Under the pieces are notes generated by a model. The model did no database searches. It was given only the letters and a program-made list of their open reading frames with translations, and was not told the DNA's origin. Shown here piece by piece: positions 32,520-54,178 of a stretch of DNA of 64,000 nt. The translations under genes and the position numbers were made by a program. This stretch comes from Catellatospora sp. KI3 (lineage in GTDB: Bacteria; Actinomycetota; Actinomycetes; Mycobacteriales; Micromonosporaceae), in the NCBI RefSeq assembly GCF_029948125.1, contig NZ_JASAMB010000010.1:124001-188000 (forward strand). Reading direction: 5' to 3'. Each line of letters opens with the position of its first letter. Within the stretch, counting starts at the first letter, position 1.

Positions 32520-34109
32520 TCACAGCCAGGAGCCGACCAGCAGCCGGTTGGCCACCGGGGCGAGGCTCATCGGGCCGGAGGTGTACCAGTCGACCGGCGC
32601 GATGGTCCCGTTCAGGAACACCTTGTACGTGAAGGAGGTGTCCGCGTTCTGGACCGCGATCACGGTGTCGTCCATGCCGTCGCCGTTGACGTCGCCGGCG
32701 GCCATCCGCGAGCCGGCGTTGTCGAGGTCGATGTTGTAGTAGGTCGCGGTGGACAGGTTGCCGAACGAGCTGCCGTTGGAGTACCAGCGGTACAGGACCA
32801 GGTAGGTGCCGCCGTCGTAGCCCAGGATCGGCTCGGCCTTGCTGTCGCCGTTGACGTCGGCCAGGATCAGCCGGTCACCGACCGGGGCCAGGCTGAACGG
32901 GCCGGAGGTGTACCAGTCGACCGGCGCGGTCGTCCCGCTCAGGAACACCTTGTACGTGAACGAGGTGTCGGCGTTCTGCAGCGCGATGACCGTGTCGTCC
33001 CTGCCGTCGCCGTTGACGTCGGCGGCGGCCATGCGGTTGCCCACGTTGTCCAGGTCGATACCGGCGTAGGTCGCCGTCGAGTAGCTGCCGAAGGAGCTGC
33101 CGGTGGAGTACCAGCGGTACAGGATGGTCGTGGTGCCACTGTCGTAGCCGAGGATCGGGTCGGCCTTGCCGTCGCCGTTGACGTCGGCGAGCACGAGCCG
33201 GTTGGCGACCGGGCCGAGGTTGAACGGGCCGGAGGTGTACCAGGTCTGGGGCGCCGCGGTGCCGTGGAGCAGGACCTTGAAGCTGAACGTGCCGTCCGGG
33301 TTCTGCATGGCCATCACGGTGTCGTCGGTGCCGTCGCCGTCGACGTCGCCGGAGGCGACCCGGTCACCGACCCCGTCCAGGTCGTACCCGGCGTGCGTGG
33401 CGGTGGAGTAGCTGCCGAACGAGGTGCCGTTGGAGTTCCAGCGGTACATGACCGTGTAGTTGCCCGCGTCGTACCCGAGGATCGGGCTGGCCAGCGACGA
33501 GCCGCCGCCGCCACCGGCGCCGACCGGAGTGGTGAACCCGACGATGTCGGAGTTGCCCGTGTAGCTGGTGTAGGTCTTGGCCTTGATCGAGTCGCTGGTG
33601 TTGCCCTCGATCGTGTACAGGGTCGTGCCCGACACCGACTTCACGATGCCGACGTGGTCGATGACCCCGTCGCCCTCCCAGTCGAACACCACCGCGTCGC
33701 CGGGCTGCGCCACGTAGCCGCTGCTGCGGGCGTGCCAGGTGCCGTGGTTCTGGCCGTACGTCTTGAACGACCGCGCCATGCCGGTCACCTCCGACAGGTA
33801 CGAGGTCACCCCGCCCTCGCGCCAGGTGTACTTGGCGAACGCCGCGCACCAGGCGTAGTCGTCGCCGCCCCCGCCCCAGCCCGACCGGCCGCCGCAGGCC
33901 GGCCAGCCGAACATCTGGCCGCCGTAGTAGGTGCAGTTGTTGCCGATCTCCACGTTGCGCAGGCTGTCGTTGAGCTCGCGCTGCGCGATCGTGACGATGC
34001 CGCTGCCGACGGTGGCGTGCGCGGCCGTGGGGGCCACGACGACTCCGAAGGCGACCGCCGCGGTCGCGACGACAGTGGTGCCGATGCGCTTGAGGAGTGC
34101 GATGGACAT
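32520..34109 (-). CDS. Secreted CHAP amidase/peptidase with FG-GAP (VCBS) repeats
   Basis: 529 aa. Signal peptide (VVATAAVAFGVVVAPTAAHA). The CHAP domain (residues ~35-195) has the catalytic Cys in DDYAWCAAFAKYTW and the His in DGVIDHVGIVKSV. A Gly/Ser linker leads to about three and a half FG-GAP units, each with LADVNGDGKADPILGYD or GDVNGDGMDDTVIA calcium loops and YRWYSNGSSFG blades, forming a beta-propeller. It likely cleaves peptidoglycan while the propeller binds a polymer. The ribosome site AAAGG lies inside a hairpin arm (34119-34151), so translation may be structure-controlled. Confidence 0.92.
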   Translation of the reverse strand: MSIALLKRIGTTVVATAAVAFGVVVAPTAAHATVGSGIVTIAQRELNDSLRNVEIGNNCTYYGGQMFGWPACGGRSGWGGGGDDYAWCAAFAKYTWREGGVTSYLSEVTGMARSFKTYGQNHGTWHARSSGYVAQPGDAVVFDWEGDGVIDHVGIVKSVSGTTLYTIEGNTSDSIKAKTYTSYTGNSDIVGFTTPVGAGGGGGSSLASPILGYDAGNYTVMYRWNSNGTSFGSYSTATHAGYDLDGVGDRVASGDVDGDGTDDTVMAMQNPDGTFSFKVLLHGTAAPQTWYTSGPFNLGPVANRLVLADVNGDGKADPILGYDSGTTTILYRWYSTGSSFGSYSTATYAGIDLDNVGNRMAAADVNGDGRDDTVIALQNADTSFTYKVFLSGTTAPVDWYTSGPFSLAPVGDRLILADVNGDSKAEPILGYDGGTYLVLYRWYSNGSSFGNLSTATYYNIDLDNAGSRMAAGDVNGDGMDDTVIAVQNADTSFTYKVFLNGTIAPVDWYTSGPMSLAPVANRLLVGSWL

Positions 34110-34166: not shown

Positions 34167-37100
34167 CTAGCTGTGCTTCAGCCCGCCTTCAACGCCGGTT
34201 ATAGGGGGCGTGAGCTCGTCATACTCCCGGGTTCCGTGCTCGTGGAACACCTTGCGCGCCCCCGCCACCAGCGCCGCGGCCGCGGCCTCGTCACCCTGCG
34301 CGCGGCGCAGCAGGGCCAGGTCGCGATCGGTGCGCGCCTCCCACAGCGGCAGCTCCAGCACCGACCACAGCTGCCTGGCCGCGACCAGGAACTCCTCCGC
34401 CAGGTCCAGCCGGCCCGCGGCCAGGTGCAGCTCCCCGAGCGTCCGCAGGCTCGACGCCTGCCCGAACCGGTCCTGCGCGATCCGGCTGGCCGCCAGGGTC
34501 TCCTCCAGCGGCGCCAGCGCCTCGCCGAGCCGCCCCTGCCGCAGCCGCGCCTTGGCCAGCGACCGCACCGCATACGTGCGCAGGAACGGGTGCCCGATCT
34601 GCTCGAAGATCTCCACCGCCTCGGCGCATGCCCGCTCGGCGGGCCCGTGCTCGTCCCGCGCCCGGTGGTAGAGGCCCAGGGTGCGCAGGCTCAGCGCCTC
34701 ACCGCGGCGACTGCCCGAGCGGCGGTACGCCGCCACCGACTGCTCCAGATTGGTCCACGCCTGCTCGTAGCGGCCCTGCTCCAGCCGCACCGACCCGATC
34801 AGCCGCCGGGTGTAGCCGATGCCGGTGTCCTCACCCAGCCCCTCCAGCAGCGTCGCCGCCTGCTCCAGGAAGTGGACCGCCTCGGCCAGCCGCCCGGACT
34901 CCCGGCACGAACCGCCGAGCCCCGCCAGCGCGGCCGCCTGCCCGCGTACGTCGCCGACCTCCCGGAACCGGCCCAGCGCCTGCCCGTACACCTGCTGCGA
35001 CTCGGTGTAGCGGTCCTGCATGTAGCGCAGCCCGCCGAGGTCGGCGAGCATGACCGCCTCCCGGAAGCCGTCCCCGGCCCGCCGGGCCGCGGCCAGCGCC
35101 GCCCCGACCACCCGCTCGCGCACCTCGAACCGGTCCGCGCCGCTGAACACCACCGAGTACTGCTCCGGGGCGAACGCGCAGGCCAGCTCATGCAGGCCGA
35201 GACCGGCGGCCCGTTCGACCGCGGCGGTGAGCGACACCTGCTCGGCGGCGAACCACGCGGCGGGATCGGCCCGCACCGCCCGCGCCAGCTCAGCCGAGAC
35301 CGGGGCCGTGACCACCTCGGGCCGGGGCCAGCGGATGTCGTCCGGCGGCGAGGACGCGTGCACCTGGTCCACCAGCGACAGCCACGACATCAGCGCCCGG
35401 GCCACCGCCGCGGCCAGCGCCTCGGGCGCCTCCTCCGCGGCGGCCCGCTCCCGGGCGTACAGCCGGACCAGATCGTGCATCCGGTAGCGCAGCTGCCCCA
35501 GCTCGTCGATCCCGGCGAACTCGACCAGCTGCGCGTCGACCAGCGCCTCCACCAGCTCCTCACCGTCGGCGTCGGCGACGTCGAGCAGCCAGCCGGCCAC
35601 CCACGGGCCGAAATGGGTGACGCCCAGGTAGCCGAGGCGCCGCAGCGCGGTTCGCGCCGGATCGGACAGCCCCACGTAGCTGAGCGCGATGCTGGCCCGC
35701 ACCCCCTGGTCACCCGGGCTCAGCTCGTGCAGGCGGCGGCTCTCGTCGCCGAGCCGCTCAGCCAGCCAGGACAGCGGCAGCCGCTGCCGCGCCGCCAGCC
35801 GCGCGCCCGCCACCCGGATCGCCAGCGGCAGCCGGGCGCAGTGGTCCACGATCGTCCGCGCGGCCGCCGGCTCGGCCGCGACCCGGTCGGCACCGACGAT
35901 GCGGGCGAGCAGCGCCACCGCCTCCTCGACGGTGAGCACGTCCAGCTCCGTCAGCTCCACCCCGGCCAGGCCGACCAGCCGGTCCCGCGAGGTGACCAGC
36001 ACCGCGCAGTCCGGCCCGCCCGGCAGCAGCGGCCGCACCTGCTGCTCGGTCGCCGCGTCGTCGAGCAGCACGAGCACCCGCCGCCCCGACAGCAGCGCCC
36101 GGAACCGCTGCGCCCGCTCGTCCGACGTGCCGGGCACGTCGGCGACCGGGACGCCCAGCGCGCGCAGGAACCCGCCCAGCACCTCACCCGGCTCGGCGGG
36201 CAGGTCCGCCATCCCGCGCAGGTCGGCGAAGAGCTGCCCGTCGGGGTAGGAACCGCGGGAGTCCTGCGCCAGCCGCGCCGCCAGCGACGTCTTGCCGGTG
36301 CCGCCCGCACCCGCGATGACCCGCAGCCCGGCCAGCGGCAGCAGCGCGGCCAGCACCTCGTCCCGGCCGGTGAAGTCCGCGGGCACCGGCGGCAGCTGCG
36401 CCGGCACCGGCAGCGCGGCCCCGGCGGTCCGCGGCGCCTCGACCTCGGGCAGGTCACCGCGCAGGATCGCCGCGTGCAGCCGGTGCAGCTCGGCACCCGG
36501 CTCGACCCCCAGCTCCTCGATCAGGACGTCGCGGCCCTCCCGGAAGCACGCCAGCGCGTCGGCCTGCCGACCCAGCCGGTAGTACGCCAGCATCAGCTGG
36601 CCGCGCAGCCGCTCGTTGGCCGGGTGCCGGCCCACCAGGCCGGTCAGCTCCGGCAGCAGCCTGCCGTGCTGCCCCTGCGCCAGCTCGGCCGCGATCCGCT
36701 CCTCCGTGGCGGTCAGGCGCAGCTCGTTGAGGCGGGTCGCCTCACCCGCCAGCACCTCGCTGTCGATCCCGGTCAGCGCGCCGCCGCGCCACAGCGCCTC
36801 GGCGGTGCGCAGCGCCTCGATCGCGGCCTGCCGGTCGCCGTCGGCACTGCGCGCCCGCGCCTGGGCCAGCAGCAGTTCGAACCGCGCCAGGTCGAGGCGC
36901 TCCGGGTCGACCTGCGCCGAGTACCCGGCCGGTTCGGTCTGGATGACCGACGCCAGGCCCTGCCGCCGCAGCGTGGAGACGTACGTCTGCACCAGGGCGC
37001 GGGCGCTGTCGGGCGGGCTCTCACCCCAGACGATGTCGATGAGCCGCGCCGCCGGGACCACCCGCCCCCGCTCCAGCAGCAGCGTCGCGAGCAGCGTCCG

Positions 37101-37175
37101 CGGCTTCTCGCCGCCGAGCTGCACCGCCCGCCCGTCCACCTCCGCCTCGACCGGCCCGAGCAAGCGGAAATCCAT
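34167..37175 (-). CDS. AfsR-type SARP regulator (HTH-BTAD-NB-ARC-TPR)
   Basis: 1002 aa. OmpR-like winged helix (MDFRLLGPVEAEVDGRAVQLGGEKPRTLLATLLLERGRVV, residues 1-95), BTAD (~100-245, ending AACFREGRDVLIEELGVEPGAELHRLHAAIL), and an NB-ARC ATPase with P-loop GAGGTGKTS (~residues 288-296), VLVLLDDA and LVTSRDR. A C-terminal TPR array follows (YTESQQVYGQALGRFREVGDVRGQAAALAGLGG and similar units). This is the domain order of Streptomyces AfsR. It is divergent from a tiny secreted repeat peptide whose promoter has SARP-type direct repeats, so that peptide is the best predicted target. No convincing ribosome site is seen before ATG 37175. Confidence 0.95.
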   Translation of the reverse strand: MDFRLLGPVEAEVDGRAVQLGGEKPRTLLATLLLERGRVVPAARLIDIVWGESPPDSARALVQTYVSTLRRQGLASVIQTEPAGYSAQVDPERLDLARFELLLAQARARSADGDRQAAIEALRTAEALWRGGALTGIDSEVLAGEATRLNELRLTATEERIAAELAQGQHGRLLPELTGLVGRHPANERLRGQLMLAYYRLGRQADALACFREGRDVLIEELGVEPGAELHRLHAAILRGDLPEVEAPRTAGAALPVPAQLPPVPADFTGRDEVLAALLPLAGLRVIAGAGGTGKTSLAARLAQDSRGSYPDGQLFADLRGMADLPAEPGEVLGGFLRALGVPVADVPGTSDERAQRFRALLSGRRVLVLLDDAATEQQVRPLLPGGPDCAVLVTSRDRLVGLAGVELTELDVLTVEEAVALLARIVGADRVAAEPAAARTIVDHCARLPLAIRVAGARLAARQRLPLSWLAERLGDESRRLHELSPGDQGVRASIALSYVGLSDPARTALRRLGYLGVTHFGPWVAGWLLDVADADGEELVEALVDAQLVEFAGIDELGQLRYRMHDLVRLYARERAAAEEAPEALAAAVARALMSWLSLVDQVHASSPPDDIRWPRPEVVTAPVSAELARAVRADPAAWFAAEQVSLTAAVERAAGLGLHELACAFAPEQYSVVFSGADRFEVRERVVGAALAAARRAGDGFREAVMLADLGGLRYMQDRYTESQQVYGQALGRFREVGDVRGQAAALAGLGGSCRESGRLAEAVHFLEQAATLLEGLGEDTGIGYTRRLIGSVRLEQGRYEQAWTNLEQSVAAYRRSGSRRGEALSLRTLGLYHRARDEHGPAERACAEAVEIFEQIGHPFLRTYAVRSLAKARLRQGRLGEALAPLEETLAASRIAQDRFGQASSLRTLGELHLAAGRLDLAEEFLVAARQLWSVLELPLWEARTDRDLALLRRAQGDEAAAAALVAGARKVFHEHGTREYDELTPPITGVEGGLKHS

Positions 37176-37259
37176 CGGTGTCCCTCCCCGTGACGGTCAC
37201 GGCCGCCAGCGTAGACGGCACCCCGGGACCCGCGGTGCCCCGAACGCCGCACCTGCCCG

Positions 37260-37289
37260 CCAAGCCGCTCCCAAGCCGACCCCAAGCCG
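37260..37289 (+). promoter_or_regulatory. SARP-box: three direct repeats with 11-bp period
   Basis: CCAAGCCG occurs at 37260-37267, 37271-37278 and 37282-37289, exactly 11 bp apart, with the third copy ending a few bases before a weak -10 candidate (TACGAA at 37294 or GAACCT at 37297). SARP regulators bind heptamer-type direct repeats with 11-bp pitch just upstream of the -10. The likely binder is the adjacent AfsR-type protein. Confidence 0.75.
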
Positions 37290-37347
37290 GGCGTACGAAC
37301 CTGATGCCGTGCCGCGGGAAGGTCCCGCCGCACGGAAGGAGACTCCG

Positions 37348-37566
37348 GTGCGCAAGCTCGCCCGCCTCGCCGCCCTGGCCGCCGTCGTCACGGTCGGCGC
37401 CCTCGCCACGGCCACCGCCGCCTCCGCCGCCGACGGCGACCCGTCGCAGTGGGGCCAGGCCGCGGCCGTCGACGGCGACCCGTCGCAGTGGGGCGCCGCC
37501 GTCGACGGCGACTCGTCGCTGTGGGTGGACACGGCAAAGAAGGGCGCCAAGGTCACCCTGGGCTGA
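37348..37566 (+). CDS. 72-aa secreted repeat peptide, AfsR-associated
   Basis: GTG start with an excellent GGAAGGAGA 6 nt upstream. Signal peptide VRKLARLAALAAVVTVGALA ending near ASA/AD, leaving a mature peptide of about 45 residues. This carries three repeats: DGDPSQWG (29-36), DGDPSQWG (42-49) and DGDSSLW (53-59), then a basic tail DTAKKGAKVTLG. The first two repeats are 13 residues apart and identical over 24 nt of DNA, showing recent duplication. No known domain. It is divergent from the AfsR-type gene behind a SARP-box and is followed by a terminator. It may be an exported signal or an AfsS-like effector, though AfsS has no signal peptide; function is inference. Confidence 0.85.
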   Translation: MRKLARLAALAAVVTVGALATATAASAADGDPSQWGQAAAVDGDPSQWGAAVDGDSSLWVDTAKKGAKVTLG

Positions 37567-37608: not shown

Positions 37609-39390
37609 TCAGGCCTGGTCGCCGTGCCAGGAACGCCACAGCGCCGCGTACGCCCCACCCGCGCGCACCAGCTCCTCGTGGCTGCCCAGCTCGCTGATCC
37701 GGCCGCCCTCCAGCACCGCGACCCGATCGGCGTCGTGGGCGGTGTACAGCCGGTGCGCGATCGCGATGACCGTCCGCCCCGCCAGCACCGCACCCAGCGA
37801 CCGCTCCGTCCGCCGGGCGGTGGTCGGGTCGAGGGCGGCGGTCGCCTCGTCCAGGATCAGCGTGTGCGGGTCGGCCAGCACCAGCCGCGCCAGCGCCAAC
37901 TGCTGCGCGTCGGCCGGGTTCAGCTGCCGCGCCCCGTCGCCGAGCTCCGTGTCCAGGCCGTCGGGCAGGTCGGCGTACCAGTCTGCCCCCACCGACACCA
38001 GCGCCGACAGCATGTCCCCGGCGGAGGCGCCCGGCGCGGCGAAGGCGAGGTTGTCGCGCAGCGTGCCGATGAAGACGTGGTGCTCCTGGGTGACCAGCGC
38101 GATCCGGCGGCGCCGCTCGGCCGGGTCCAGTTCGGACACCGGCACCCCGCCGAGGCTGACCGCGCCCTCGCGCGGGGCGTCGATCCCGGCCAGCAGCCGG
38201 GCCAGCGTCGACTTGCCCGCCCCGGACGGGCCGACCACCGCCAGCCGCTCGCCGGGGCGCACCTCCAGGTCGATGCCGTGCAGCACGTCGCCGCCGCCGG
38301 GGTAGGAGAACCGCACCCCGCTGGCGACCAGCCGCCGGCCGGGCGGGGCCGCGGCGCTGCCCCGCGGCTCCGGCGGGACCAGGCCGATGCCCAGCACCCG
38401 CGACAGCGAGGCCACGCCGCGCTGGGCCTGCTCCAGGAACACCATGATCCGGTCGAGCGGGTCGATGGTCTGCTGGGCGTACAGGGTCGCCGAGACGACC
38501 GTGCCGAGGGTGACCCAGCCGCGGTCGAGGAAGAACCCGCCCGCCAGCAGCATCGCCGCGGCGGGCAGCGCGTACCCGGCCTCGGTGATCGGGAAGAAGA
38601 CGCTGCGCAGCCCCAGCGTGGCGCGACGGGTCTGCCACTGGCGCGCGATCCGGGCCGTGCCCTCGCGCACCCGCGCCGGACCCAGCCGCAGCGCCTCCAC
38701 CGTCCGCGCGCCCTCGGCGGTCGCGGTCAGCGACTCGGTCAGCTCCGAGGTCGCCTCACCCTCGGCCAGGTACGCCCGCGGCGCCCGCCGCAGGTACCAG
38801 CGCGCCACCGCGGCCGTGGTCGGCACCCCGGCCAGCACCGCGAACCCCAGCACCGGCTCCAGCAGGAACACCGCCGCCACCACCAGGACCAGCTGGATCG
38901 CCGAGATCAGCACCGTCGGCACCACCTCGCGCACGGTGTTGCCGACCGTGGCCACATCGACCGAACTGCGGGTGGCCAGCTCGCCCGTGCCGGCCCGCTC
39001 CACCACCGAGATCGGCAGCCGCAGCGTACGGGCGACGAAGTCCTCCCGCAGCCGCGCGTTGGCCCGCTCGCTGGCCCGGTTGCCGATGTTCTGCGCGGTG
39101 CGCGACAGCAGGACCTGCGCCACCACGCAGGCGCCGATGGTCAGCGCGAGCCGGTCCACGTGCGCGGCGCCCTGGCCGCTGCTCACCCGGTCGACGATCT
39201 GCCCGATGAGCCACGGCGAGGCCAGCCCGGCGACCGCCGCGGCCACGTGCAGCGCCAGCGCCAGGAGCAGCGCCCCTTTCTCGGCGCGGGCCAGCTCGGC
39301 CACCGACCGGCGCACGGTCGCGCCGTCGGCGACGGGCAGGGCCCTGGCCACCGGCTGCTCCGGTGCGGTCGTGGCGGTGGTGGCGGTCAA
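37609..39390 (-). CDS. ABC exporter half-transporter, degenerate signature (subunit with active Walker motifs)
   Basis: 593 aa, type IV (ABCB-like) exporter: six membrane helices (to ~residue 330), then the nucleotide-binding domain. Walker A GPSGAGKST (~384-392), Q-loop VTQEHH, Walker B LILDEATAALDP with catalytic Glu, and H-loop AIAHRL are intact. The LSGGQ signature is replaced by LNPAD (QLNPADAQQLALARL). It overlaps the upstream partner gene by 4 nt (ATGA), so the two are made together and should form a heterodimer. In that dimer this subunit's Walker A pairs with the partner's intact LSGGQ. Substrate unknown. Confidence 0.93.
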   Translation of the reverse strand: MTATTATTAPEQPVARALPVADGATVRRSVAELARAEKGALLLALALHVAAAVAGLASPWLIGQIVDRVSSGQGAAHVDRLALTIGACVVAQVLLSRTAQNIGNRASERANARLREDFVARTLRLPISVVERAGTGELATRSSVDVATVGNTVREVVPTVLISAIQLVLVVAAVFLLEPVLGFAVLAGVPTTAAVARWYLRRAPRAYLAEGEATSELTESLTATAEGARTVEALRLGPARVREGTARIARQWQTRRATLGLRSVFFPITEAGYALPAAAMLLAGGFFLDRGWVTLGTVVSATLYAQQTIDPLDRIMVFLEQAQRGVASLSRVLGIGLVPPEPRGSAAAPPGRRLVASGVRFSYPGGGDVLHGIDLEVRPGERLAVVGPSGAGKSTLARLLAGIDAPREGAVSLGGVPVSELDPAERRRRIALVTQEHHVFIGTLRDNLAFAAPGASAGDMLSALVSVGADWYADLPDGLDTELGDGARQLNPADAQQLALARLVLADPHTLILDEATAALDPTTARRTERSLGAVLAGRTVIAIAHRLYTAHDADRVAVLEGGRISELGSHEELVRAGGAYAALWRSWHGDQA

Positions 39391-41126
39391 CGCAGTGCTC
39401 CCATTCCGGCGGCGTCGGTCTCGGGTTCGTCGGCCTCGCGGGCCACCAGCGCCCGGTAGCCGGGCTCGGTCTTCAGCAGCTCCTCATGGGTGCCGACGGC
39501 GGCCACCCGGCCCTCGCGCAGGTACGCCACCAGGTCGGCCCGGTCCAGCAGCAGCGGCGAGGTCGCGCAGACGACCGTTGCCCGGCCGGCGCGGTGCTCG
39601 CGCAGCCGTGCCGCGATCCGGGCCTCGGTGTGCGAGTCGACGGCCGAGGTCGGGTCGATCAGGATCAGCACGTCCGGCTCGGCGAGCAGGTGCTGGGCGA
39701 GCCGGATGCGCTGGCGCTGGCCGCCGGACAGGTTGCGGCCGCGCGCCTCGACCACCGCGTCCAGGCCGCCGGGCAGCGAGTCGACCACGTCGTCGGCCGA
39801 CGCGGTACGGATCGCGGCGGCGACCTGCGCGTCGGTGACATCCGCGCGCAGCCGCAGCACGTCGCGCAGCGCCCCGCTGAACAGGTACGAGTCGTGGTCG
39901 GCGACGAGGATCCGCGCCCGCACCTGGGCCGGGTCGACCGCGGTCACCGGCAGCCCGCCCCAGGTCGCGTCACTGGGCACGTAGCCGCCGAGCCGGTCGG
40001 CCAGCGCGATCGCGTCCGCGGGGTCGGCGGCCGCGACGCCGATCATGCCGTGCGCCGCGACGGTCAGCCCGGAGTGCGGATCGTGCAGGTCGGCGGGGCC
40101 GACCGGGGCGGGGCGGGCGCCGGGCACCAGGTCGGGCTCCAGCCGGAGCAGGGCGATGATGCGCCGGGCGGCGACGATGCCGCGTACGGCCATGAAGCCG
40201 CCCTCGAGCAGGAACCAGACCGGCACCGCCAGGACGGCCACGTAGCCGTACACGGCGACCATCTCCCCGACGGTGATCTGCCCCTCGGCGGCCATCCGCG
40301 CGGCCAGCCACACGATCGCGGCCAGGAACAGCGCCGGGATGCCGATCGTCAGCGCGTGCACCCAGCTGGTGATCGCGCCGACCCGGTAGCCCTGCCGCAG
40401 CAGCCGCTGCGACCGGTCGGCGTAGCGGCGCGCGAACAGGTCCCGCCCGCCGACCCCGGCCAGCACCCGCAGCCCCGACACGATGTCGCCGGCGCGGGTC
40501 GTCAGCAGCCCCAGCTCCTGCCGGTAGCCGGTGTCCACCCGCTGCAGCCGGTTCAGCAGCGGCCCGACCACCAGCGCCACCACCGGCACGCCCAGCAGCA
40601 CGAACAGGGCCAGCATCGGATCGACCGACCAGAGCACGACCGCACCCGTCGCGTACGACAGGACCGCGCCCACGCCCGGCCCGGTCATCGTGAGCGACCA
40701 GGACGTGTGCGACACGTCGGTGCCCGAAACCGTCGCCACCTCACCCGCGGCGACCTTGCGCGGCAGCACCGCCCCCAGCCGCGCGATGTGGTGCAGGATC
40801 ACCTGCGACGAGCGCGCGGTCGCGTCCTCGCGCAGGAACGTCATCGTCCGGTGCCGCGTGATCCCCAGGTACGCCACCACCACGCCGGACGCGACGATCG
40901 CCGCCACCCAGTCCAGCAGCGCCCCGGCGTCCCCGGCGCGCAGCCCGTCGTCGATCGCCCGCGCGATCAGGTACGGCCGGACCGCCAGGCCGATCATCCA
41001 CGCGGTGGCGACCGCGCCCGCCCGCAGCGCCCGCGGCCACTGGCAGCGGATGAGCCACCACAGGTAGCGCACGGGCCCTCTCGTGTCCGGAACGCCAGGG
41101 TCAGGATGCGGCAGACGTGGGGGCAT
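39387..41126 (-). CDS. ABC exporter half-transporter, degenerate ATP site (subunit with active signature)
   Basis: 579 aa, six membrane helices then a nucleotide-binding domain. The signature NLSGGQRQRIRLAQHLL is intact. The Walker A position reads GMIGVAAADPADAIAL with no GKS/T, the Q-loop reads VADHDSYLFSG, Walker B is LILIDPTSAVD with Pro instead of Glu, and the H-loop reads CATSPLLL without His. It therefore cannot hydrolyse ATP itself but supplies the signature to the partner encoded by the next gene. ATG 41126 is 6 nt after a TAGATT -10 box with no ribosome site, so the operon is probably leaderless. Confidence 0.93.
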   Translation of the reverse strand: MPPRLPHPDPGVPDTRGPVRYLWWLIRCQWPRALRAGAVATAWMIGLAVRPYLIARAIDDGLRAGDAGALLDWVAAIVASGVVVAYLGITRHRTMTFLREDATARSSQVILHHIARLGAVLPRKVAAGEVATVSGTDVSHTSWSLTMTGPGVGAVLSYATGAVVLWSVDPMLALFVLLGVPVVALVVGPLLNRLQRVDTGYRQELGLLTTRAGDIVSGLRVLAGVGGRDLFARRYADRSQRLLRQGYRVGAITSWVHALTIGIPALFLAAIVWLAARMAAEGQITVGEMVAVYGYVAVLAVPVWFLLEGGFMAVRGIVAARRIIALLRLEPDLVPGARPAPVGPADLHDPHSGLTVAAHGMIGVAAADPADAIALADRLGGYVPSDATWGGLPVTAVDPAQVRARILVADHDSYLFSGALRDVLRLRADVTDAQVAAAIRTASADDVVDSLPGGLDAVVEARGRNLSGGQRQRIRLAQHLLAEPDVLILIDPTSAVDSHTEARIAARLREHRAGRATVVCATSPLLLDRADLVAYLREGRVAAVGTHEELLKTEPGYRALVAREADEPETDAAGMGALR

Positions 41127-42303: not shown

Positions 42304-42342
42304 GGCCCGCGGCCTGCTCCTGATCAGAGCAGCCCGCGGGCC
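42304..42342. terminator. Convergent terminator
   Basis: 16-bp arms (42304-42319, 42327-42342) with one mismatch and a 7-nt loop, overlapping the stop of the response regulator and 6 bp beyond the CBM2 gene. Confidence 0.65.
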
Positions 42343-42941
42343 ATCGCGGTGGTCACCGCGGCGGTCCGGTCGGCGACGTCGAGCTTGGTGAAGATCCGCA
42401 GCAGGTGCGTCTTCACCGTCGCCTCCGAGATGAACAGCTCCCGCCCGATGTCACCGTTGGTCAGCCCGCGCGCCACCAGCCGCAGCACCTCGGCCTCCCG
42501 CGCCGACAGGCCGGGCTGCGCGGGCTGGCGCACCTGCCGCAGCAGCCGCCCGGCCACCGACGGCGCCAGCACCGTCTCCCCGCGCGCCGCCGCCCGCACC
42601 GCCGCCGCCAGGTCACCCGGCGAGGCGTCCTTCAGCAGGTACCCCGACGCCCCCGCCTCCACCGCCCGCAGGATGTCGGCGTCACTCTCGTACGTCGTCA
42701 GCACCACCACCCGGCTGCGCGAACCGCCGCGCAGGATCCGCTCGGTGGCGCTGGCACCGTCCCCGCCCGGCATCCGCAGATCCATCAGGATCACGTCGGG
42801 CAGCAGCGCCGCCGCGGCGGTGACCGCCTCCGGACCCGACGCCGCCTCACCGACCACCCGCAGGTCCGGCTCGGCCTCCAGCATCCCGCGCAGCCCGGCC
42901 CGTACCACCGGATGGTCGTCGGCGAGCAGAATGGTGATCAT
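42324..42941 (-). CDS. NarL/LuxR-family response regulator
   Basis: 205 aa. Receiver domain with the acidic pair ADDH, phospho-acceptor Asp in [14 protein letters not shown] and Lys in GYLLKDAS. The C-terminal LuxR HTH is [52 protein letters not shown]. It overlaps the kinase gene by ATGA. It is phosphorylated by that kinase and probably controls the upstream ABC genes of the same operon or others. Confidence 0.95.
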
Positions 42942-44107
42942 GACGGCACCTCCAGCGTGACGGCCGTGCCCCGGCCCGGTTCGGTGTCCACCGTGAGCAC
43001 CCCGCTCACCTGCGCCGCCCGCGCCCGCATCCCCGGCAGGCCGAACCCCTGCGCGTCCCGTTCCGCGTCGAAGCCGCGCCCGTCGTCCTGCACGCTCAAC
43101 GCCACCCCCTCGGCCCGGTAGTCCAACCGCACCAGCACCACCGCCGCCCCCGCGTGCCGCCGTACGTTGGCCAGCGCCTCCTGCGCCGCCCGCAACAGCA
43201 CCACCTCCACCGCGGTGGGCAGCGGATACGGCTGCCCGCCGACCGCGTACGACACCTCGACGCCGATCTCCTCCGCCAGCCGCTCCGCCTGCCGGCGCAC
43301 CGCCTGCTCCAGCGACCCCGCGTCCAGTGCGGCCGGCTGCAGCGCCGCGATCAGCGCCCGCGACTCGGCCAGGTTCTCCCGCGCCGTACGCACCGCCAGG
43401 TCCACGTGCTCGCGGGCCCGCACCGGATCGCGCTCCAGCTCCGCGCCCACCGCCTGCAGCAGCGTCACGATGCTGGTGAAACCCTGTGCCAGCGTGTCGT
43501 GGATCTCCCCGGCCAGCCGCGACCGCTCCGCGGCCACCCCCGCCTCCCGCGACAGCCGCGCCACCTCGCCCCGGCTGGCCTCCAGCTCGCCGATCAGCTT
43601 CAGCCGCTCCTGGCTCTGGTTCAGCACCCGGATGATGAACACGCCCATCAGTACCGACAGGCTGACCCCGAAGACCGACATGATGGCGGTGGTGTGCAGG
43701 TCCGCCCCGTCGGCGCGCCGCCCCAGGGCCAGGGCCAGCGGCATCAGGTTGGCGACGGTCGCACCGGCGATGGCCTGCCCCAGCGGCAGGCTCATGAACA
43801 TCAGCGGCGACAGCGCGAAGTCGATGTACGCGGTGACCGGCACCGCCGCGATCGCCGCGATCTGCAGCACCAGCAGCGCACCGATGAACGGCCACACGCG
43901 CCCCGAGTCGGCGTCGCAGGCCACCAGCGGCCGCCCCCAGCACGCGTACAGCACGGCCATCGCCGTCAGCGCCCCCGCCGCGACAGCGCCGCGCGCCGTG
44001 CCGATGCCCTGGTCGGCGACCACGAGCACCAGCACGACGACGTACGCGATCGCGAAGTACAGGTCCCACGTCCGCAGCGTCGTGGACCAGGACTCGCGGC
44101 GGCTCAT
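42938..44107 (-). CDS. Sensor histidine kinase (HisKA_3 type)
   Basis: 389 aa. About five membrane helices in the first ~160 residues, a coiled-coil ([29 protein letters not shown]), the dimerisation/phospho-acceptor box [21 protein letters not shown] with the His, and a HATPase_c domain ([34 protein letters not shown]). It overlaps the ABC permease gene by 4 nt and the regulator by 4 nt. No large extracellular sensor is seen, so it may sense the membrane or the transporter, as in BceS-like kinases (inference). Confidence 0.94.
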
Positions 44108-44916
44108 CTGTCCTCTGTGGTCCAGCGGAAGGTCGTCAGGCACAGCGCCAATCCGATCACACACCAGGCGCCCAGCACGAGCGCGATCCGGCCGTGCTCC
44201 CAGCCGCCCGCCAGCTCCTGCGCGGCAAGCGTTTCGGGCAGGAACACCGACCGGAACCCCTGCGCCATCCACTTCACCGGGAAGAACGACGCCACCGTCA
44301 CCATCCAGCCCGGCAGCGAGCTGATCGGGTGCACGAAGATCCCGGACAGGAACTGCAGCGCCACCACCGGCACGTTCAGCACCACCCCGGCGCTGCGCGA
44401 GTTGCGCACCAGCGCGCTGGCCGCCACCCCGAGGGCGGTGCTGGCCACCACCGACAGCGCCAGCACCCAGGCGAAGGTCAGCCACCGCCCGGCGTCGTCG
44501 GGCAGCTCCATGTCGAACGCGAGCACCCCCACCGCCAGCAGCAGCGCCACCTCGGCCAGCGTGGTGACCACCACGACGACGAGCTTGCCGATGAAGTACG
44601 CCAGCGCGGTCATCGGCGTGCCGCGCAGCCGCTTGAGCGTGCCGTCCTCGCGATCGGTGGCGATGCCGGTGCCGATCGAGATGAACGCGGTCGACACGAT
44701 CCCGTACGCGATCATGCTGGCCGAGAAGACCTGCGCCACCGACGCCGCCGGATGCTGGCCGGAGTCCTTGAAGATCGAGCCGAGCAGCACCAGCAGCAGC
44801 GCCGGGAACGCCAGGCTGAACCCGACGGCGGCCTTGCTGCGGAAGAACTGGCGCAGCTCCACCGCGCCGCGGGCCAGGCCAAGGCGGCCGCTGGAAGGCA
44901 GGGAGACACTGGTCAC
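44104..44916 (-). CDS. ABC-2 type permease
   Basis: 270 aa with six hydrophobic helices and the ABC-2 signature region FPVKWMAQGFRSVFLPE. The motif ATDREDGTLKRLRGTPMTALAYFIGKL is typical of drug/lipid exporters of the DrrB/NatB kind. It overlaps both neighbours by 4 nt. It works with the ATPase encoded just upstream. Confidence 0.93.
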   Translation of the reverse strand: MTSVSLPSSGRLGLARGAVELRQFFRSKAAVGFSLAFPALLLVLLGSIFKDSGQHPAASVAQVFSASMIAYGIVSTAFISIGTGIATDREDGTLKRLRGTPMTALAYFIGKLVVVVVTTLAEVALLLAVGVLAFDMELPDDAGRWLTFAWVLALSVVASTALGVAASALVRNSRSAGVVLNVPVVALQFLSGIFVHPISSLPGWMVTVASFFPVKWMAQGFRSVFLPETLAAQELAGGWEHGRIALVLGAWCVIGLALCLTTFRWTTEDR

Positions 44917-45764
44917 CGGTCTGCTCCGATCAGGGTCAGGTAGGTCTGCTCAAGGGAGGGGCGGGTCACGCTCAGGTCGGCCACCGGACCGGCGGCGGTC
45001 AGCGCGGTGATCAGGGCGGCCGGGTCGGCGGTCTGCTCGGTGCGGCGGCCGGTGGCGTCGGTCCAGGCGACGGTGGCCAGCTGGGTCTCGCGGCCGCCGA
45101 CGGTCGCCGGGGTGCCCTCGGCGACGATCCGCCCGCCCGCGATCACCGCGAGCCGGTCGGCCAGCACCTCGGCCTCGTCCAGGTAGTGGGTGGTGAGCAG
45201 GATGGTGGTGCCCTCGGCGTTGAGCAGCCGGATCAGGTCCCAGAACTGGCGGCGCGCCTCCGGGTCGAACCCGGTCGTCGGCTCGTCCAGGAACAGCAGC
45301 TCTGGTCGGCCCACGATGCCGATCGCCACGTCCAGGCGGCGGCGCTGGCCACCGGACAGGGTCCGTACCCGCGCCTTCGCCTTGCCGGTCAGCCCGACCA
45401 GCTCGACGACCTGGCCCACCGGGCGCGGATTCGGGTAGCAGGTCGCGAAGTGGCGCACGGCCTCGGTGACGGTCAGGTCGCCCAGGTCGTGGGCGGACTG
45501 GGCGACGATGCCCAGCCGGGCCCGCCAGCCGCGCCCTGCCGTGCCAGGGTCCTCGCCGAGGACCGCGACGTCGCCGCCGTCGCGGCGGCGGTAGCCCTCG
45601 AGGATCTCCACGGTGGTGGTCTTGCCCGCGCCGTTCGGGCCGAGCAGGGCGAAGACCTCGCCCGAGGCGACGGTCAGGTCCAGGCCCGCGACGGCTTCGC
45701 GGCCGCCGTACGCCTTGCGCAGGCCGCGCAGCCGGATGGCCGGGGGAGGGGGAGTCGATGTCAT
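44913..45764 (-). CDS. ABC transporter ATP-binding protein (DrrA/NatA type)
   Basis: 283 aa. Walker A GPNGAGKTT, Q-loop IVAQSAHDLGDLTVTEAVRHFA, signature LSGGQRRRLDVAIGIVG, Walker B LLFLDEPTTGFDPEARR and H-loop LTTHYLDEAEVLADRLAVI are all intact. The C-terminal extension is of the drug-resistance ATPase type. First gene of a four-gene unit (ATPase, permease, kinase, regulator) joined by 4-nt overlaps. Export of a drug-like or lipid substrate is likely. Confidence 0.95.
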   Translation of the reverse strand: MTSTPPPPAIRLRGLRKAYGGREAVAGLDLTVASGEVFALLGPNGAGKTTTVEILEGYRRRDGGDVAVLGEDPGTAGRGWRARLGIVAQSAHDLGDLTVTEAVRHFATCYPNPRPVGQVVELVGLTGKAKARVRTLSGGQRRRLDVAIGIVGRPELLFLDEPTTGFDPEARRQFWDLIRLLNAEGTTILLTTHYLDEAEVLADRLAVIAGGRIVAEGTPATVGGRETQLATVAWTDATGRRTEQTADPAALITALTAAGPVADLSVTRPSLEQTYLTLIGADR

Positions 45765-51037: not shown

Positions 51038-51154
51038 CCGCGCTCCCGCGGTCGGCGAAGCGTTCTCTTCCCGACAGAAGGGTTGTCCCGGGGCACGCCC
51101 CACCGCAGCCTGCATAGGCGTACGGAACCGACAACTCCGCGCGATAGGACGAGC

Positions 51155-54100
51155 ATGGTCAGCCGACCCGGCCGCCGCATCGTGGTCGCCGCCGCCGGCT
51201 ACGGCAAGACGACCGCCCTGCGCCGCTGGTACCCCACCGGCCAAGCCCGCTGGTGGCAGCACGACACCGCCCCGCACCTGTTCGTCCGCGACGCCGCCCG
51301 CTCCGGCGGCCACCTCGTCCTGGACGACCTGCCCCCGCTGCCCGACCCTGCCCTGCGGGACCTGCTGCGCGCCGTCGCCGAACTCGACGAGGGCACCGAC
51401 GTCGCCCTGGCCTCCCGCCACCCGCTCCCGTGGCGCCGCCTCGGCAGCGCCGACCGCTGGACCGAGACCGACCCCGCCGACCTGGCCTGCACCGCCGACG
51501 AGATCGACGACCTGATCACCGAAGCCTGCGGCACCCCCGACCCCGAACTGGCCGCCCGCCTGCACAAAGCCACCGCGGGCTGGCCCGCCCTGGTCCACCT
51601 CGCCGTCGAGTCGGTGCACCGCCACGGCGACCCCGGCACCCCGCTGGGCGCCGACGAGCCGCTGCGCGAACACGTCCTCGACCACGTCCTGGCCGAGCTG
51701 CCGCCGACGGCGTACCGGCTGCTGGTCCAGCTCGAAGACCGCACCCCGGTCAGCACCGGCCTGGCCGCGGCGCTCGGCCACCGCGACGCCGCCGACCTGG
51801 TCGCCCACCTGCGCCGCACCGGACTGCTGGTCCGCACCCGCCGGGTCGTGCCGGGCCTGCCCGCCGCCGAGCACGTCGTCCCGGTCGTCGCCGCGGCCGT
51901 CGCCACCGACCGGCGCGGCGTCTCGGCCACCACCACCGCCCGCAAAGCCGCCACCTGGTACGACGAGCACGGCCCGCCCGCCGCGGCCGCCCGCGAGCAC
52001 CTGCGCGCCGCCGACCCCGACCGCTGCGCCCGCGTCCTGGCCGACCACGGCGACCGCATCATCTCCGCCGGCCAGGCCGGTCTGACCGCCGACCTGATCA
52101 GCCGCCTGCCCGGACCCCTGCGCACGCCGCGGCTGCGGACCCTGCTCGGCGACGCCCAGCGCACCGCGGGCGACCTCGAAGCCGCCGCCCACACCTACAC
52201 CGGCGTGTCCGGACCGGACGACACCTGCACCCCCGGCCTGGCCTGGCGCATCGGCCGCATCGCCTACCAGCGCGGCGACGCCCAGGGCGCACTGGCCGCC
52301 TACGCCCGCGCCACCCCCGACGCCACCGCCACCGAGGACACCGCCCTGCTGGCCGCGTGGACCGCCCACGCCCACCTGCTCGCCGGGGACGTCGACCTGG
52401 CCACCGCCACCGCCCGCCGCGCCGTCACCCAGGCCGCCGCCTGCGGCGACGGCACCGCCCTGGCCACCGCCCACCTGTCGGTCGCGCTGTGCCTGGCCGT
52501 GGCCGGCGACGCCGCCGGCAGCGAGGAGCACTTCGCCCTCGCCCTGCCCGTCGCGCAGCGCACCGGCGACGTGCTGCTGCTCACCCGGATCCACACCAAC
52601 CGCACCTACCAGCGGCTCCAGGCCGCCCGCTACCCCGAGGCGCTCACCAGCGCCCAGCTGTGCGTCGCGTACGCCCAGGCCGCCGGGTCGCCGAGCCTGC
52701 ACGCCATCGCCACCAGCAACGAGGCCGAAGCGCTGGCCATGCTCGGCCGGTTCCCCGAGGCGGTCCGCCGCTACCAGGCTGCCATCGCCCACTACCAGCG
52801 CCACGGCTCCCGCCGCTTCGCCGGGGCGGTGCTGGGCCTGGCCGAGCTGTACCGGCGCCGGGGCTGGCGCGAGCAGGCGCGCGCCGCGTACGAGCAGGTC
52901 GTCGCGGTCGCCACCGGCACCGGCAACGCCCACGTGCTGGTGCCCGCCCTGGCCGGGCTGGCCCTGGTGCTGCTCGCCGACGACGTCAAAGCCGCCGCGG
53001 GGCACGCCGACGCGGCCGCCGGGCACGCCGGACCCCAGGCTGCCGGACCGGCCCTGCTCGCACAGGGCTGGACGGCGCTGGCCGAGGGCACCCCCGGCCG
53101 CCCGGCCGAACTGGCCACCGAGGCGGCCCGGGTGGCGCGCACCAACACCGACCCGGCCGGGCTGGCCGACGCCCTGGAGTTGCGGGCCGCCGCCGAGACC
53201 GACCCGGCCCGCGCCCGCGCGGCGCTGCGCGAAGCCGAGGCGATCTGGCACCAGGCCGGGGCGGCCGTGGAGGCGGCCCGGATCGCCGTGCTGACCGGCG
53301 CACTGCCCGGGACCGGCACCGACGAACGCGCCGCGGCAGCCGCCGCCGCCCAGCGGCTGGCCGCCGTCGACGCCATCGCCGACCGGCTCGGCACCGGCGC
53401 CACCGCCACCCGGCCGCAGGTCGCGGTACGGGCCCTGGGCCGCTTCGAGGTCGAGGTCGCCGGGCAGGTCCCACCACCCTCGCAGTGGCAGTCCCGCAAA
53501 GCCCGCGACCTGCTGCGCATCCTCGTCGGCCGGCGCGGCCGGCCGGTGCCCCGCAGCGAACTGTGCGAACTGCTGTGGCCCGACGGCGAACCCGCCCGCA
53601 CCGGGCACCGGCTGTCGGTGCTGCTCAACATCCTGCGCGGGGTGCTCGACCCGGACCGCGCCCAGCCCGCCGACCACTTCCTGCTCGCCGACACCGCCGC
53701 GATCGCGCTGAACCTGCGCGCCGCCGACGTCGACGTCGAGGACTTCCTGGACCACGTCGCGCACGCCCGCCGCCTGGTCGAACAGGAGCGGCTCGGCCAG
53801 GCACGGGAGATCCTGCTGGCCGCCGACACGCTGCACCGGGCCGAGGCGTTCGAGGACGAGCCGTACGCCGAATGGGCCGGGCCGCTGCGCGAGGAGGTCC
53901 GCGCGGCCCACCTGGCGATGCTGCGCATGCTCGCGCACACCCACCGCGCGGCCGGGCAGCCCGGCGCGGCCGTCGCGTGCCTGCTGCGCCTGCTCGAACG
54001 CGACCCCTACGACGAGCGCGCCCACCGGTCGCTGGTGCGCACCCTGGTCGCGGGCGGGCAGCACGGCGAGGCCCGGCGGGCGTTCGACCGGTACGCGGGC

Positions 54101-54178
54101 GCGATGCGCGAGATCGGGGTGCGGCCGCCGGACCGGGAGCTGCTGCTGCCGGTCCGGCCCACCGCGCCCGCCCGCTGA
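51155..54178 (+). CDS. Large ATPase-TPR regulator with C-terminal SARP (HTH-BTAD) module
   Basis: 1007 aa. The P-loop is at the extreme N terminus (AAAGYGKTT, residues 12-20), followed by the STAND-type ATPase features HLVLDDLPPLP, VALASRHPLPW and ATAGWPALVHLA. A long TPR superhelix occupies ~300-740, and then an OmpR-like HTH plus BTAD (from VRALGRFEVEVAG near residue 755, RKARDLLRILVGRRGRPVPRSELCELLWPDG, to the end). Classic SARP regulators carry HTH-BTAD first, so the order is inverted here, similar to MalT/LAL proteins with a BTAD reader. ATG 51155 has AGGA 7 nt upstream. Targets unknown. Confidence 0.92.
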   Translation: MVSRPGRRIVVAAAGYGKTTALRRWYPTGQARWWQHDTAPHLFVRDAARSGGHLVLDDLPPLPDPALRDLLRAVAELDEGTDVALASRHPLPWRRLGSADRWTETDPADLACTADEIDDLITEACGTPDPELAARLHKATAGWPALVHLAVESVHRHGDPGTPLGADEPLREHVLDHVLAELPPTAYRLLVQLEDRTPVSTGLAAALGHRDAADLVAHLRRTGLLVRTRRVVPGLPAAEHVVPVVAAAVATDRRGVSATTTARKAATWYDEHGPPAAAAREHLRAADPDRCARVLADHGDRIISAGQAGLTADLISRLPGPLRTPRLRTLLGDAQRTAGDLEAAAHTYTGVSGPDDTCTPGLAWRIGRIAYQRGDAQGALAAYARATPDATATEDTALLAAWTAHAHLLAGDVDLATATARRAVTQAAACGDGTALATAHLSVALCLAVAGDAAGSEEHFALALPVAQRTGDVLLLTRIHTNRTYQRLQAARYPEALTSAQLCVAYAQAAGSPSLHAIATSNEAEALAMLGRFPEAVRRYQAAIAHYQRHGSRRFAGAVLGLAELYRRRGWREQARAAYEQVVAVATGTGNAHVLVPALAGLALVLLADDVKAAAGHADAAAGHAGPQAAGPALLAQGWTALAEGTPGRPAELATEAARVARTNTDPAGLADALELRAAAETDPARARAALREAEAIWHQAGAAVEAARIAVLTGALPGTGTDERAAAAAAAQRLAAVDAIADRLGTGATATRPQVAVRALGRFEVEVAGQVPPPSQWQSRKARDLLRILVGRRGRPVPRSELCELLWPDGEPARTGHRLSVLLNILRGVLDPDRAQPADHFLLADTAAIALNLRAADVDVEDFLDHVAHARRLVEQERLGQAREILLAADTLHRAEAFEDEPYAEWAGPLREEVRAAHLAMLRMLAHTHRAAGQPGAAVACLLRLLERDPYDERAHRSLVRTLVAGGQHGEARRAFDRYAGAMREIGVRPPDRELLLPVRPTAPAR

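Follow-up and report, generated by a model that had tools for sequence, protein, structure and literature searches.

A predicted exported peptide of Catellatospora is probably expressed from a promoter of the type that SARP regulators activate. SARPs are known chiefly as activators of antibiotic clusters. It is proposed that a SARP-class promoter, whose three direct repeats are each centred on CAAG and lie on the same face of the helix, with a weak xANNNT -10 element at a fixed 3' distance, would drive a gene for a small peptide exported by the Sec route. The activator would most likely be a SARP of the QTYVSxLRR clade, namely the regulator encoded next to the gene, another lineage-specific paralogue, or the clade member that all three species have conserved (L160/L186/L217). 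Outside the cell, the peptide would most likely work with a linked locus for a histidine kinase, a response regulator and an ABC-2 transporter, either as a ligand or as a handled substrate. As a whole, this reading of the sequence comparisons, a SARP-activated exported peptide partnered with the kinase locus, seems to us about evenly poised between right and wrong. The window, that is the whole stretch of 64 kb that was analysed, belongs to the genome G000; the other two carriers of the peptide, G005 and G009, are also Catellatospora.

The Three-Repeat Box and Its -10 Element

37260-37267, 37271-37278 and 37282-37289, forward strand: SARP-type box, three copies of CCAAGCCG at a pitch of 11 bp, kept as three CAAG cores in G005 and G009
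37297..37302, forward strand: predicted -10 element GAACCT (xANNNT), 10 nt after the last CAAG

The sequence-only reading described three copies of CCAAGCCG spaced 11 bp apart, and the spacing is exact (starts at 37260, 37271 and 37282). Between pitches of 8 and 24, the window has no other exact threefold 8-mer, and among 15000 sequences simulated with a Markov-1 model of the 172-bp intergenic region none had an exact triple at pitch 11. A CCAAG triple with at most one mismatch matches once in the 8.2-Mb genome, a scan that is not significant by itself because the reversed control gives 1+1. The composite of box and -10 element also occurs once in that genome, with a control of 0+0.

Absence of the repeats before orthologous peptide genes had been named beforehand as one outcome that would speak against the sequence-only reading. 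Upstream of both credible homologues (2/2), the diverged one of G009 included, three CAAG cores stand at 11-bp pitch. Across 354 genomes of the family, the CAAGYS triple without the -10 element is weakly enriched (41 matches versus 29 in the reversed control), and the composite with the -10 element and with YS relaxed gives 87 matches in 53 of the genomes versus 5 in the reversed control. From 30 of the 41 CAAGYS matches, 31 distinct box sites were obtained, including those of the window and G005; they are not independent, because several are evidently related (window and G005; L059, L060 and L071). The xANNNT element is found at one offset in 17 of these 31 sites, with at most 5 at any other tested offset, and is absent from the common offset in the remaining 14. 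The genes downstream of the sites are varied. A SARP gene is present in 6 of 30 composite-box loci examined, the window being one of the six.

In the part of PMC10936776 that was available, the rule for SARP promoters places the -10 element at 8 bp from the 3' repeat and sets the repeat pitch at 11 or 22 bp, and the -10 element of afsS is CACTGT. The box here has direct repeats at such a pitch, and its predicted -10 element follows the 3' repeat at a short, constant spacing. The published rule and the afsS element thus agree with its geometry and favor the reading as a SARP-class promoter, a claim that is strengthened by the comparison between species. Box conservation and promoter geometry were observed directly, and what they suggest is that a SARP binds here.

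The box is nearer to the CGGCAAG heptamers of PimR, SanG and PolR than to the afs box (PMC3367932, in the portion available). In the same portion, the PimR operator or SARP-LAL box in the pimM promoter of Streptomyces natalensis consists of three heptameric direct repeats CGGCAAG with 4-bp spacers; three heptamers, 4-bp spacers and the CAAG core are shared with the box here (PMC3367932). On the other hand, the 5' bases of the heptamer differ here, and the PimR site and the -35 of its promoter do not overlap. PimR also has a guanylate-cyclase/LAL half, whereas the regulator beside the box here has NB-ARC and TPR matches. The afs box, as given in the accessible text of PMC10972967, is made of two repeats CGTT(T/C)ATCGNN, unlike the CAAG-core triple found here.

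The scans also returned sites of other kinds. Multi-copy triples of the CAAGATACGCC type in G002, G008 and G003 were rejected as SARP boxes, since they look like palindromic intergenic repeats. At L118, L119, L122 and other loci of G002 and G008, a multi-copy palindromic intergenic repeat was seen with CAAGATACGCCCAAGTGCCAGGCAAG or near it. At L262 and L050, three CAAG cores and a -10 element precede the gene of an 85-aa protein with AGGxxxNHS-type repeats, in which a signal peptide is not evident and for which Pfam and NCBIfam gave zero matches. In the genus g44 (L059, L060, L071 and L268), box and -10 element are followed, nearly leaderless, by an ORF starting with MTN[MT]TTFWAGPTF or MTKRIWAGPT.

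The Peptide and Its Relatives

37307..37335, forward strand: weak 5'-leader stem-loop, just before the ribosome-binding site and near the predicted transcription start
37336..37341, forward strand: ribosome-binding site AAGGAG, by direct reading
37348..37566, forward strand: gene for the 72-aa exported peptide, GTG start, with a bias toward synonymous changes
37348..37428, forward strand: predicted Sec signal peptide of 27 aa with cleavage ...ASA-A, by direct reading and heuristic
37432..37527, forward strand: repeat units DGDPSQWG (37432), DGDPSQWG (37471) and DGDSSLWV (37504)

The ORF is probably a real gene, because the codon changes between species are mostly synonymous (nonsynonymous changes 2/9, P = 0.005, and 7/18, P = 0.007). 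The leader stem-loop is regarded as weak because shuffling gives z values between -0.9 and -1.2 and because the corresponding stretch of G009, taken whole, folds in another way. The signal peptide that had been claimed is plausible; the product passes the signal-peptide heuristic, in which the first possible site is residue 18, and cleavage is likely between ASA and A after residue 27, as read by eye. The peptide is thus probably exported. Repeats spaced by 13 residues had also been claimed. The units are present, but their regular spacing did not hold, as they start at residues 29, 42 and 53, which is 13 residues and then 11.

A search of 101 genomes, and then a profile search of the 354 family genomes, identified G005 and G009 as the only genomes with credible homologues. 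At E ≤ 0.1, 44 of the 101 genomes gave matches; at E ≤ 0.001, 9 of the 354 did. The same three carriers (G000, G005 and G009) were accepted from both searches, and the six genomes left out of the profile search (E 2.7e-4 to 9e-4) matched inside longer reading frames. Up to 16 candidates per genome were scored in the profile search, so relatives at greater distance may escape detection. A pattern scan of genome contigs matched 46 stretches, from which 1 relative was confirmed, and a plasmid search gave zero matches. In Pfam and NCBIfam, the peptide has zero families above the curated cut-off. In the limited literature collection searched, titles and abstracts contained no pair of a SARP with a secreted peptide or pheromone, and searches for the motif turned up no paper.

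The homologues of G005 and G009 have 48 and 46 aa and carry one DGDPSQWG-type unit each. The mature peptide in these two species consists of one [D]GDPSQWG unit followed by a conserved AK[KR]GAKV[TA]LVG tail, and the window's form has about 2.5 units. Because the homologues have a single unit, and units 1 and 2 of the window's form are identical over 24 nt, the repeats look recently expanded by duplication. AfsS, a cytoplasmic protein that is not known to have a signal peptide, has been described with three 12-aa repeats. Conserved triple repeats of about 12-13 residues are not seen here, where the spacing is 13/11 and both homologues are single-unit, and the signal-peptide heuristic is positive. 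Homology to AfsS was rejected on repeat number, spacing and box. A RiPP precursor was considered and rejected as well: zero families lie above the cut-off, and the NCBIfam HaaT and FxSxx matches of the adjacent regulator are far below theirs.

The Linked Kinase and ABC-2 Locus

37609..41126, reverse strand: two ABC exporters between the peptide and the response regulator, in the same order in G005 and not between them in G009
42324..42959, reverse strand: response regulator with a LuxR-type (GerE) domain, in the locus whose linkage to the peptide is kept
42938..44107, reverse strand: histidine kinase, start approximate
44104..45764, reverse strand: ABC-2 permease and ATPase of the kinase/response-regulator locus, the ATPase also in G005 and G009

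Apart from one additional large gene in G005, gene order to the right of the peptide is broadly shared by the window and G005, running from two exporters through response regulator and kinase to the ABC-2 ATPase. In both, the kinase locus lies at least 4.8 kb from the peptide, past the two exporters. In G009, the stop codons of the peptide and response-regulator genes are separated by 39 bp, and a different contig carries the exporter orthologue. Response-regulator orthologues of 95-98% are found in 3 of 11 genomes of the genus, and these are the peptide carriers; three of the other genomes have 74-75% matches and five have none at 1e-80. The exporter orthologue is present in all 11 (at least 83%). 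In the gene tree of the conserved SARP, the three carriers form one clade (support 1.0), and the exporter gene tree disagrees. The co-occurrence of peptide and response regulator may therefore be plain descent, because the carriers may be one clade. From linkage and lineage distribution, both of which are observed, we infer that the kinase/ABC-2 locus is the better-supported partner of the peptide, compared with the adjacent regulator.

The linkage of the peptide to ABC-2, kinase and response-regulator genes would also suit a secreted antimicrobial or envelope-active peptide, for which the ABC-2 exporter and the two-component system would provide immunity or sensing. The single-unit mature forms (19-21 aa, calculated pI 8.5-10) fit such a role, but the window's form is acidic (calculated pI 4.05), the peptide belongs to no family above the cut-off, and a Pfam scan of eight neighbouring proteins revealed zero modification enzymes. 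An antimicrobial role is therefore unlikely, while deserving some weight.

Which SARP May Act on the Box

34167..37175, reverse strand: 1002-aa SARP/NB-ARC/TPR regulator, divergent from the peptide gene; in the other two species the peptide does not have it as a neighbour

The regulator beside the box has Trans_reg_C, BTAD, NB-ARC and TPR matches, that is the architecture of a SARP with NB-ARC/NOD and TPR parts. It had been taken for a divergent gene of AfsR type; divergence and architecture stand, and orthology to AfsR falls, as the score of 585.8 is far from the cut-off of 1430 for the NCBIfam AfsR equivalog. As for the base contacts of AfsR (residues counted on the 993-aa chain), T88 is kept and the Arg92 position is Thr, so that the pair is not conserved jointly. 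The AfsR-afsS system of Streptomyces coelicolor shares with the present case a SARP + NOD + TPR regulator and direct repeats at 11-bp pitch that precede a suboptimal xANNNT -10 element (PMC10936776, as far as its available part goes). It differs in its two-repeat box, in the three 12-aa repeats of AfsS and in having a regulator of the AfsR equivalog, and the proposed analogy was abandoned on account of the different box, the score, the threonine and the one-unit homologues.

It has also been considered that this 1002-aa regulator itself activates the peptide gene via the box, and that the exported peptide putatively feeds back on its NB-ARC/TPR half. The two genes are adjacent and divergent, and of the 29 composite-box loci other than the window, 5 contain a SARP gene, where about 1% would be expected (an estimate of ours, based on the 36 BTAD matches found in 8.2 Mb). 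Against this, the box-bearing homologues have no such regulator beside them. The upstream neighbour of the peptide carries a TIR-like sequence in G005 and looks like a peptidase in G009 (by eye). Over 6.4 kb of sequence upstream of the peptide in G005, the SARP-domain profile found nothing; its nearest match in G009 is a SARP-like ORF of weak score (80.9 bits; L281 1977-3353, forward strand), which lies about 7.4 kb from the peptide, on the side of the kinase, and is missing from the BTAD match list. In a comparison of 100 SARP domains and the window's, which included 34 of the 35 G009 matches, the regulator had zero reciprocal best matches in G005 or G009 (best 60% and 57%).

Because the regulator is not beside the homologues, and no reciprocal match to it was found among these domains, the box does not seem to need it in two species, and a conserved private pairing of regulator and peptide is not supported. 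A search for such peptides next to AfsR-like genes, suggested by the sequence-only reading, came out negative: 30 of 64 regulator matches were examined, and such a peptide was found at none of the 29 other loci. Together with the loss of the Arg92 equivalent, these results make activation by the neighbour, with feedback from the peptide, distinctly unlikely as a general account; action of the regulator on the box in the window's own strain is possible.

Among the alternatives to the neighbour, the L160/L186/L217 group shows reciprocal best matches between all three species. Its recognition helix is QTYVSSLRR versus QTYVSTLRR in the window regulator, and like recognition helices do not prove like sites. 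The SARP-domain tree places L161 with the window regulator at a support of 0.33, and L148 and the L160 group with it at 0.77. A large ATPase-like protein at 51083-54178 of the window has a BTAD-like match, and its reciprocal orthologues in G005 and G009 are likewise encoded near the peptide; it is not favored as the regulator, since the match is C-terminal. Beside the regulator, at 32520-34109, the window encodes a CHAP-domain protein that has FG-GAP repeats and what looks like a signal sequence.

That the peptide is a lineage-specific orphan of little function, exported and given a SARP-type promoter by chance, would agree with its 3 carriers in 354 family genomes and the 1 relative from the contig scan, but is improbable in view of the synonymous bias and the conserved box and tail.

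A Second Repeat Peptide Beside a SARP

A filter for small exported ORFs was passed at 4 of 100 SARP upstream stretches (L181, L186, L208 and L218) and, among the 30 regulator loci, by the window's peptide and at L075, L078, L081, L082 and L088. L218 was taken forward, the rest being judged less convincing by eye. The locus encodes a probably exported peptide of 68-69 aa that contains two GFGWDSV units and whose gene immediately precedes that of a SARP (L284, from 1501 on the forward strand; L285, reverse strand). The G009 form has 69 aa, and the G001 homologue (62%) is also upstream of a SARP and keeps both units. The search matched 4 of 354 genomes; G009 and G001 were accepted, and G307 and G048 were left out as longer proteins in SARP-free loci. 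NCBIfam gave zero families above the cut-off for this peptide. In G009, its gene is preceded by an AMP-ligase-like C-terminus, as read by eye.

Like the window's peptide, the GFGWDSV peptide is small and probably exported, carries Trp in tandem repeats and neighbours a SARP of Catellatospora, and the L218 SARP branches next to the clade of the window regulator (support 0.67). It differs in being unrelated in sequence, in lying on the same strand as its SARP and in having no CAAG triple in the upstream stretch read. A speculative and rather remote extension is that Catellatospora, and perhaps other actinomycetes, use Sec-exported tandem-repeat Trp peptides tied to one SARP clade as signals, with DGDPSQWG and GFGWDSV as unrelated instances whose unit copy number evolves fast.

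Implications

A class of SARP-associated extracellular peptides beyond DGDPSQWG is possible. With the composite of three CAAG cores and a -10 element, the whole family to which the window's genome belongs can be screened for candidate SARP promoters. A SARP-class promoter on an exported peptide would make a peptide link directly testable for the large SARPs that carry an NB-ARC/TPR half.
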